This document shows positions 7,346 to 19,909 of a DNA stretch of 64,000 nucleotides, in pieces. Source of the stretch: an uncultured Bacteroidota bacterium. Its GTDB lineage: Bacteria > Bacteroidota > Bacteroidia > AKYH767-A > OLB10. The position numbers and the translations under genes are program-made. The notes under the pieces are model-generated. The model was not told the DNA's origin and did not search any database. It saw only the letters and a program-made list of their open reading frames with translations. The stretch spans positions 1 through 64,000 of the forward strand of contig CAADHD010000034.1 in assembly GCA_900696575.1 (NCBI GenBank), in the 5' to 3' direction. Position 1 is the first letter of the stretch. Every line of letters starts with the position of its first letter.

Positions 7346-7416
7346 TTGTCCGACCAGGATTCGAACCTGGAAAGGCAGAACCAAAATCTGCAGTGTTACC
7401 ATTACACCATCGGACA
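7346..7416 (-). tRNA. tRNA-Gln (anticodon TTG)
   Basis: The minus strand folds as a 71-base cloverleaf. The acceptor stem pairs TGTCCGA with TCGGACA and has discriminator A. The D-arm region carries GGTGTAATGGTAAC. The anticodon stem GCAGA/TCTGC encloses loop TTTTGGT with anticodon TTG (7384-7382), which reads CAA/CAG. The T-arm is CCAGG-TTCGAAT-CCTGG. The CCA end is not encoded. A terminator follows immediately. Confidence 0.95.
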
Positions 7417-17682: not shown

Positions 17683-18912
17683 TTAATTCACTTCAATCAA
17701 ATGCCCCATTTTGTTTTTCTTGGTTAGCAGGTAATTTTTGTTATGCTTGTTAGGTTTTATACGAATGGGAATGTTCTCCACAATTTCCAATCCGTAACCA
17801 ATTAATCCTGCGCGCTTGGTGGGATTATTAGTTAATAATTTCATTTTACTCACACCGATATGCCGCAATATCTGTGCTCCGATCCCATAATCCCTTTCAT
17901 CCATTTTAAAGCCTAATTTCTGATTGGCCTCTACAGTATCGTAACCGTTCTCCTGAAGCTTGTATGCTTTCAGTTTGTTAAGCAACCCTATCCCCCTGCC
18001 CTCCTGATTCATATATACAATTACCCCTTTGCCCTCTTTCTCTATCATCTTCATGGCTTCATGTAACTGGGGTCCGCAATCGCAGCGACAAGAACCAAAA
18101 ATATCACCGGTAAGACAAGAAGAATGCACCCGCGTTAATACCGGTTCGTTTTTTCTCCATTTACCTTTTATCAATGCAAGATGCTCCTGCCCGTTATTAA
18201 TTTGCTTGTAGGCTCTTAACCTGAAATCGCCATAAACCGTTGGGAGCATTACCTCTACTTCCTGTTTAACCAATGAATCTTTTGATAACCGATAAGCAAT
18301 GAGATCTTCAATCGAAATAATTTTAAGATTGAACTCTTCGGATAATTTCAGCAACTCATTTAACCGGGCCATGCTTCCATCACGATTCATAATTTCTACC
18401 AATACTCCGGCAGGTTCAAATCCTGCAAGCGTTGATAAATCAATAGCGGCTTCTGTATGCCCCGACCTGCGAAGAACACCTCCCTCCTGAGCACGTAATG
18501 GAAAAATATGACCGGGTCTTCCTAATTCCTCCGGCTTTGTGAGGGGATTGATTAATGCCTTAATAGTTTTTGAACGGTCAGATGCTGAGATGCCTGTAGT
18601 ACATCCATGTCCTAATAAATCAACAGAAACGGTAAATGCAGTTTCATGCGAGGAAGTGTTCCGGGCAACCATCATAGGCAACTTCAATTCTTCACATCGG
18701 GTACCGGTTAAAGCAACACAGATTAGTCCCCGCCCATGGGTTGCCATGAAATTTACAACCTGCGGAGAAGCAAATCGTGCCGGAATTATAAAATCACCTT
18801 CATTCTCCCGCGAAGCATCATCAACTACAATAACCATTTTTCCCTTTCTTATGTCGCGGATTGCTGATTCGATGGAATGGAGGATTATTTTCTTTTTTTT
18901 CACTCTGTACAT
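17683..18912 (-). CDS. ribBA: Bifunctional DHBP synthase / GTP cyclohydrolase II
   Basis: Cytoplasmic riboflavin enzyme that supplies both precursors of lumazine. The N-terminal RibB domain (about 10-210) makes 3,4-dihydroxy-2-butanone 4-phosphate from ribulose 5-phosphate and shows [11 protein letters not shown] (31-41) and the GHTEAA motif (151-156). The C-terminal RibA domain (about 215-409) opens GTP. It keeps the zinc cysteines C266, C277 and C279 in [17 protein letters not shown], and NQEGRGIGL. Length (409) is normal and both active sites look intact. Its -7 element is only 9 bases from the start codon. No FMN riboswitch is recognisable upstream. Confidence 0.96.
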
Positions 18913-18929: not shown

Positions 18930-19120
18930 GGTCAAGCCGTAAGCAAAACCGTTTTCTTATCAAACTTATCCAATAGCTTACAGAAATCTTGCATTCTGCA
19001 ACCTTTTGCGGAAAATGTATAACCTAACGACATTCTCTCCGTTAAACTTGCTAAATCAATCAGCAATAAATAGTTAGCTGAGAGTTCTTAAAAATGTGAT
19101 GAGTTTAGGTTGGGACAGGG

Positions 19121-19142
19121 AGGGCAGCCCCGTAAGGCTGCC
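19121..19142. repeat. CCGTAA-loop hairpin 1
   Basis: The arms GGGCAGCC (19121-19128) and GGCTGCCC (19135-19142) pair perfectly over 8 bp around the loop CCGTAA. It is the first of three related hairpins in this gap. Confidence 0.8.
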
Positions 19143-19206
19143 CGGTTTTCCCTGGAAAATCTAAAAGAAATACCAAGAGAAAGTTTTTGGGTTGATTCAG
19201 GTAGAA

Positions 19207-19228
19207 GGGCTGCCCCGTAAGGCAGCCC
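19207..19228. repeat. CCGTAA-loop hairpin 2
   Basis: The arms GGGCTGCC (19207-19214) and GGCAGCCC (19221-19228) enclose the same CCGTAA loop. Relative to hairpin 1 the central A-T pair is exchanged for T-A on both arms, a compensatory change. Confidence 0.8.
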
Positions 19229-19265
19229 GGACATCTGACCTGCTGAAAAATTTATGCGTTCGTTT

Positions 19266-19295
19266 AAAAATGCTGCCCCGTAAGGCGGCATTTTT
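19266..19295. repeat. CCGTAA-loop hairpin 3, terminator-like
   Basis: A 12-bp stem (19266-19277 with 19284-19295, one G-U pair) carries the same CCGTAA loop. It is flanked by A and T tracts, so it resembles a rho-independent terminator in both directions, although no gene ends here. Confidence 0.75.
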
Positions 19296-19315
19296 TATTT
19301 CTGCATGTTTGCAGC

Positions 19316-19909
19316 ATGGCATACAAACCAAATGATTTTTATGCCCGAAAGGCCAAATCGGAAAACTTCGCAGCGCGCTCTGTTTACAAACTTGAAGAGA
19401 TTGATAAAAAATACAGGATATTCAAAAAAGGACAACAGATTTTAGATTTAGGCGCAGCACCCGGTTCCTGGTCTCAATATGCTTCCACAGCTATAGGTGA
19501 AAGCGGAAAAATCCTTGGTATTGACTTAAAGCCTGTTGCCATCAAGCTGAGTAATGCTGTATTCATAACAAGTAATATTCAGGAATTTGATATTCAGCTT
19601 CTCGTAACTGCACATGGCTTTAAAGAAAAGTTTGATGTGGTAATCTCTGACATGGCTCCTTCTACTTCTTCCAATCGCTTTACCGACCAGGCGCGCTCCT
19701 ATGATTTATCCATAACCGCATTACAAACTGCCATCCGGGTTCTGAAAACCGGAGGCTCATTCATTTGTAAAATTTTTGATGGACCTGATGCCAAATCTTT
19801 TGGTGATGAATTGAAAACCTATTTTAAGCTTGTCCATTCATTCAAGCCGAAAAGCACACGGAAAAGCAGCAAAGAATTTTTTTTTATCGGCCTCGGTTCC
19901 TGTTTCTGA
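19316..19909 (+). CDS. rlmE: 23S rRNA 2'-O-ribose methyltransferase RlmE (FtsJ/RrmJ)
   Basis: Methylates U2552 (E. coli numbering) of the A-loop of 23S rRNA with SAM, late in 50S assembly. The 197 residues are the family length. The SAM-binding loop is LDLGAAPGSWSQYA (43-56). The K-D-K-E tetrad is visible as K25, D112 (SDMAPS), K152 (ICKIFDG) and E187 (SSKEFFFIG). Residues 1-25 (KPNDFYARKAKSENFAARS) are typical. The ATG lies 20 bases after hairpin 3. Confidence 0.94.
   Translation: MAYKPNDFYARKAKSENFAARSVYKLEEIDKKYRIFKKGQQILDLGAAPGSWSQYASTAIGESGKILGIDLKPVAIKLSNAVFITSNIQEFDIQLLVTAHGFKEKFDVVISDMAPSTSSNRFTDQARSYDLSITALQTAIRVLKTGGSFICKIFDGPDAKSFGDELKTYFKLVHSFKPKSTRKSSKEFFFIGLGSCF

Follow-up and report, generated by a model that had tools for sequence, protein, structure and literature searches.

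The 64,000-nt stretch of DNA analyzed here (the window) carries what is, by all computational signs, an unnamed, structure-conserved RNA family. Its representative is a candidate noncoding RNA of approximately 280 nt on the plus strand, divergent from ribBA and closed by the last of three hairpins with a CCGTAA loop. That this is a real structured RNA of the plus strand is very probable. We estimate a probability of about 0.55 that the locus is one gene of a Bacteroidota noncoding RNA family with sponge or scaffold action; the sponge or scaffold mechanism, rated by itself, falls a little short of even odds.

The three CCGTAA-loop hairpins described in the initial annotation are present (Table 1; hairpin 3 at 19266-19295), and their arms match that description; the A-T/T-A exchange that distinguishes hairpin 1 from hairpin 2 is there as well. 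The whole 2.87-Mb genome contains exactly three copies of the 12-mer GCCCCGTAAGGC, and all of them lie in the window at this locus. Thus, the local cluster is far beyond chance. A looser pattern, GCNGCCCCGTAAGGCNGC with two mismatches allowed, yielded a single additional match, a poor one. Among the seven hexaloop hairpins in the window (six Watson-Crick pairs, at least four GC), CCGTAA was the sole loop to occur twice. On either strand, folding z-scores ranged from −2.4 to −3.9 (hairpins 1 and 2) and from −2.1 to −3.3 (hairpin 3). Beyond what had been described, the first two hairpins have in common an outer helix (CAGG.../...CCTG) and the conserved leader RGGTTG, and so constitute a repeat unit of approximately 55 nt, UUUUAGGUUGAU-GUCAG-stem-CCGUAA-stem-CUGAC. 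Hairpin 3 ends in a T-run (GGCATTTTTTATTT).

Table 1. Features of the array region and its flanking genes in the window
Feature	Coordinates	Strand	Basis
ribBA, divergent neighbor	17683-18912	−	Pfam DHBP_synthase and GTP_cyclohydro2; upstream array conserved in the order
Possible promoter/operator region, equivalent of the TTACA/TGTAAG element, degenerate here	18976-18991	+	Inferred from aligned position in relatives; weak in this genome
AACCTAA block near the inferred RNA 5' region	19018-19029	+	AACCTTA/AACCTAA conserved in family f1
5' stem-loop, TCAGC-loop-GCTGA; stem sequence varies among relatives	19060-19081	+	Pairing in 19 relatives
Conserved GTTCTT box after the stem-loop; (AT)CGTTCTT in relatives	19084-19089	+	Conservation; similar CGTTCTT box in family f49
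Unit 1: leader GTTTAGGTTGGGA, outer helix CAGGG/CCCTG, inner stem GGGCAGCC/GGCTGCCC, loop CCGTAA	19103-19155	+	Inner hairpin 19122-19143
Unit 2: leader TTTTGGGTTGAT, outer helix TCAGGTAGA/TCTGACCTG, inner stem GGGCTGCC/GGCAGCCC, loop CCGTAA	19185-19242	+	Inner hairpin 19207-19228
Hairpin 3: AAAAATGCTGCC-CCGTAA-GGCGGCATTTTT, then T-rich tail; predicted intrinsic terminator	19266-19300	+	Terminator scan; equivalents in relatives
rlmE (FtsJ-like methyltransferase), downstream neighbor	19316-19909	+	Pfam FtsJ; linkage not kept beyond the genus

The alignment of 32 units from family f1 followed the consensus UUUUAGGUUGAU(U)GUCAG-n-stem-CCGUAA-stem-n-CUGAC, and structure predictions made for f1 units one by one agreed with it and showed the outer helix. 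Covariance model R1 matched unit 1 at 19103-19154 (E = 1.1e-9) and unit 2 at 19185-19239 (E = 1.9e-11). In the inner stem of the 32 distinct f1 units, 95.7% of cells were paired, with 48 two-sided changes that touched seven of the eight pairs. The covariation score was 0.558 versus 0.201 after shuffling; none of 500 shuffles reached the observed score, and slid controls were 20-49% paired. Within each well-sampled family, arms paired far better with their own partner than with a shuffled one, as in f1 (0.903 versus 0.519), f49 (0.85 versus 0.53), and f62 (0.87 versus 0.55). Hexaloops closed by five Watson-Crick pairs in the arrays were CCGTAA (150), CTGTAA (13), CAACCC (11, f8 only), CCATAA (5), and others at three or fewer; the count assumed no loop, yet the array regions had themselves been chosen for CCGTAA. 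At the RNA level, CUGUAA and CCAUAA are rare variants. The annotation's view that pairing rather than linear sequence is kept holds up, and an RNA element and a protein-binding array were among the options it had listed. The lack of copies in relatives that it had named as a counter-argument is not what was found, as relatives retain the hairpins with altered stems.

The region ahead of the units is less uniform. The site of the 5' stem-loop had a mean of 5.6 Watson-Crick pairs in 19 relatives versus 3.9 in shuffles; in the window's genome alone it is weak, 22 of 100 shuffles being equally good. The AACCTAA block and the UUAGGUU leader of unit 1 are complementary, and long-range pairing between them is predicted. 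In f1, the order is a variable stem-loop, then (AT)CGTTCTT, then the first unit. Similarly, f49 has a CGTTCTT box near the inferred 5' end, behind a promoter-like box, TTTACTTTG.

Both strands of the region 19020-19302 (283 nt) fold similarly well, at −98.3 kcal/mol (z = −5.1) for plus and −90.6 kcal/mol (z = −4.8) for minus, so folding energy leaves the strand undecided. In relatives, T-runs follow the terminal CCGTAA hairpins on the CCGTAA strand. Inside the stems, that strand has 15 G-T pairs versus six A-C mismatches, and arrays in 3' UTRs are sense to their gene in the CCGUAA orientation. Hairpin 3 is GC-rich, is followed immediately by a U-run, and was scored as a terminator. The annotation had held that ordinary terminators are not expected here; hairpin 3 instead resembles the intrinsic terminator of a transcript divergent from ribBA, and the arrays of relatives close likewise. 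Transcription of the plus strand is suggested by these sequence features.

The hairpins lie between ribBA and rlmE, as annotated, and of the two genes ribBA is the linked one. At the rlmE loci L006-L018, hairpins were missing except in the same-genus locus L009, and an element of rlmE was rejected. Only one relative of the same genus was found, G001; it carries the same three hairpins in unchanged order, and in these the leaders are conserved and the stems altered. The motif was present in 33 of 42 genomes of the order. Genome-by-genome inspection of approximately 1 kb of sequence ahead of ribBA revealed CCGTAA hairpins in 22 of the 23 f1 genomes with ribBA, G019 being included through a covariance-model match and G003 being the exception. 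In f3, the corresponding figure was 9 of 10, eight from upstream inspection and G033 from a match at C105:307. In these 31 genomes of the order, the hairpins lie 200-550 nt upstream of ribBA, and CCGTAA is always on the strand opposite ribBA. No such hairpins were found upstream of ribBA in the f4, f5, and other-order genomes examined. A covariance model from f1 units had a best E value below 1e-10 in 22 of 24 f1 genomes, with all strong matches at the ribBA array; the units used to build the model match by construction, and the result mainly means that nothing else in those genomes resembles the array.

Outside the order, arrays of 2-13 hairpins with the same loop occur at unrelated loci in several families of Bacteroidia and in another class. 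A promoter-like box and a terminator often accompany them, or they lie in 3' UTRs. A class-wide scan and its follow-up revealed clustered arrays in f8, f49, f62, f45, and f25. The neighbors differ by family: ribBA in f1 and f3, panB upstream in f8, and others in f49, f62, f45, and f25. The f62 arrays have 12-13 hairpins. The f8 arrays lie between panB and a 187-aa ORF whose first 70 residues had no Pfam match. In f8 (L315 3700-4180, L316-L318, L321, L326), CCGTAA hairpins alternate with CAACCC-loop hairpins, such as GGAGC-CAACCC-GCTCC, and the arrays close with a long hairpin, AAAAGTGTCGGGATTTAAATC-CCGTAA-.... Outside the class (f97, f121) and within it (f39), CCGTAA hairpins follow genes or end in terminators. 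A phylum-level scan with the strict pattern CCCGTAAG-N15-45-CCCGTAAG matched 9 of 395 genomes; this is a lower bound, as the pattern misses the window's own array, and some of its matches are not arrays. The arrays of distant families have little in common besides loop and architecture, which could have been acquired more than once and not by common descent. Such repeated acquisition would itself point to a shared partner.

Several genomes have arrays at further loci. Genomes of f3 contain a second array, of three CCGTAA hairpins; its neighbors are a TonB-dependent receptor gene and a DUF6580 gene, and in five genomes (L112, L113, L117, L120, L121/L122) it ends 30-40 nt from the latter. G003, the f1 genome lacking the ribBA array, has eight hairpins in a 63-nt repeat array elsewhere (L108), with two CCGTAA-type hairpins per repeat. 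Tandem 63-nt repeats, likewise with two such hairpins each, were also observed at L275 and L276 in G384, where they run to the contig ends. In G018 (L109 6250-6620), a small secreted-protein gene that lies upstream of a 2-oxoacid:ferredoxin oxidoreductase operon has 12 CCGTAA hairpins with differing stems in its 3' region; in G002 (L125), the same operon is preceded by a lone hairpin. In G522, from the other class, a gene with a predicted C-terminus of VVDEDDKK, a dnaK-like tail, is followed directly after its stop codon by six CCGTAA hairpins (L340 1428-1560, reverse strand).

In the reading we favor, an RNA would be transcribed from the plus strand away from ribBA and would end at hairpin 3 as its intrinsic terminator. 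Its body would consist of tandem hairpins with a fixed CCGUAA hexaloop and stems free to change while paired. The RNA would act in trans, offering several identical loops to one RNA-binding factor. This factor would be a protein, or with lower probability an RNA containing UUACGG, and would be titrated or scaffolded as CsrB and RsmZ titrate CsrA. Action in trans is probable because the array persists while its genomic context changes; promoter-like boxes and terminators further argue for an RNA of this kind. Repetition of an invariant loop on freely changing stems within one molecule would mark the RNA as a multi-site ligand of the kind seen in RsmZ, a 127-nt RNA with four stem-loops plus a terminator and A(N)GGAX in each loop (PMC4005645). 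More tentatively, the CCGUAA arrays may be the RNA half of a Bacteroidota-wide system analogous to Csr/Rsm, in which a conserved RNA-binding protein would recognize the hexaloop and arrays, whether independent or derived from 3' UTRs, would titrate or assemble it. Against a sponge, the window's copy has only two full units and the terminator hairpin, which is few, and 3'-UTR arrays could instead be mRNA elements.

A pure loop sponge also leaves unexplained the single-stranded leader UUUUAGGUUGAU, which occurs in two to three copies per RNA and is conserved in f1 nearly as well as the loop. This leader could be the seed of a base-pairing sRNA that acts near the starts of target mRNAs, with the hairpins only stabilizing or presenting it. 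Indeed, the seed of Bacteroides FopS/GibS blocks susC translation (PMC11697453). We consider this explanation unlikely: the leader was not seen in the f3, f8, f49, f62, f45, and f25 arrays, which keep the loop and the array, and a seed would not account for a loop that stays invariant when the stem does not.

A different role would be that of a Bacteroidota-specific mRNA 3'-end element, both terminator and 3'-UTR stabilizer, read by a decay or termination factor and amplified in the standalone arrays. Lone CCGTAA terminator hairpins follow unrelated genes (L114, L116, L124, L127), and arrays follow panB, the VVDEDDKK-ending gene of G522, and small secreted-protein genes. The window's genome contains no other GCCCCGTAAGGC, so CCGTAA is not a general terminator loop there; moreover, many array hairpins lack a U-run, and no gene lies upstream of the f1 array on its strand. 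On balance, a 3'-end element is improbable. CCGTAA as a general terminator loop was also considered and set aside: it occurs in several terminators, but the loci had been fetched by that motif, which biases the count.

It is very unlikely that the array is a cis-acting, riboswitch-like leader or attenuator of ribBA, read on the minus strand with UUACGG loops. The position upstream of ribBA in 31 genomes and the UNCG-type tetraloop contained in UUACGG would fit such a leader, but the terminators and the G-U bias favor the opposite strand, arrays elsewhere are unlinked to ribBA, and several are located downstream of genes with CCGUAA in the sense orientation. A leader of this kind would need a conserved aptamer on the ribBA sense strand, and Rfam gave neither an FMN riboswitch nor any other family at the array. 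Finally, the annotation's suggestion of REP/BIME-like palindromes moved by a RAYT transposase has next to no chance of being correct and is refuted for this genome: the hairpins resemble REPs as GC-rich palindromes of approximately 20-30 nt in clusters, with GTAGAA before hairpin 2, but they number three at a single locus versus the more than 100 copies that are usual (PMC2817692), are arranged head-to-tail only, have neighboring stems that differ, and show compensatory evolution in place across many genera. The GTAG/GTGG head expected 5' of the palindrome was absent from hairpins 1 and 3 and from most relatives. An apparent dispersed REP-like burst in G004 (49 CCCCGTAAGG) proved, at the sites examined, to be coding-like sequence without hairpins.

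Returning to the sponge or scaffold RNA, its architecture matches that of CsrB/CsrC and RsmX/Y/Z, in which several hairpins presenting the same short loop and a Rho-independent terminator are carried on one RNA. There are two units and a terminator hairpin here and up to 13 hairpins elsewhere, presumably on one RNA. The arrays differ from the Csr/Rsm RNAs in having a CCGUAA loop rather than A(N)GGAX. The array RNA is thus CsrB/RsmZ-like in architecture and is not a Csr RNA. CsrA was rejected as the partner, as its gene (PF02599) was absent from all 14 genomes searched, the positive controls being detected. RRM proteins are also unlikely: RRM_1 (PF00076) was present in 11 of the 14 genomes and absent from the array-bearing G000, G004, and G018, the window's own genome among them. 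For an RNA partner, no UACGG occurred in a tRNA anticodon loop, as needed for kissing, among the 35 tRNAs in the loci examined, a number too small for a verdict. FopS/GibS of Bacteroides thetaiotaomicron are likewise sRNAs of Bacteroidota, and an RNA-binding protein, RbpB, binds and counteracts them; FopS differs in being approximately 65-70 nt long, with 14 dispersed paralogs, a 5' seed, and no tandem hairpins reported (PMC11697453). RbpB belongs to the RRM_1 proteins, of which none was found in the window's genome.

Classical RNA chaperones have no homologs in Bacteroidota (PMC11697453), and global post-transcriptional regulators of the phylum are only beginning to emerge. A fixed-loop, multi-hairpin RNA kept across genera, and found in several families and another class, is a ready bait for its partner. 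Because the loop is identical everywhere, a single pull-down could reveal that partner. Should it prove to be a protein, the arrays would belong to a Csr-like titration system of separate evolutionary origin.

Searches of Rfam 15 at the gathering cut-off with the window, seven array loci (sub-threshold matches only at E ≤ 1), and 20 further loci returned nothing but tRNA. The sole match in the window is a tRNA gene at 7346-7416 on the minus strand. No paper containing the word CCGUAA and no description of the motif was found in the literature, most subscription journals, preprints, and supplements being outside the search. The pan motif likewise consists of simple hairpins in tandem near panB genes, an arrangement that suggests binding by a dimeric protein; it differs in two conserved bulged A residues and its position upstream of pan genes (Weinberg 2010, PMC2864571). 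The GUCCY-hairpin appears in a table of the same study for Bacteroidetes and Proteobacteria, with no Rfam number in that table. What it shares with the arrays is being a hairpin listed for this phylum, and the family described here is, to judge by these searches, previously unnamed.

The putative promoter/operator region may also be viewed across relatives, in many of which the TTACA/TGTAAG element is an inverted or direct repeat, such as CTTACAGTTGTAAG in G006. A regulon of the CTTACANNTGTAAG palindrome was rejected: it occurred at four places in the window's own genome versus 12 for the reversed control, the site being clear only in relatives. A TTACANNTGTAAG-like palindrome was observed upstream of ribBA in G006, G031, G037, and G040 (L139, L136, L132, L045), and a TGTAAG direct repeat with a 12-nt period in the corresponding regions of G011, G015, and G018. 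The palindrome or repeat lies approximately 100-150 nt before the array.
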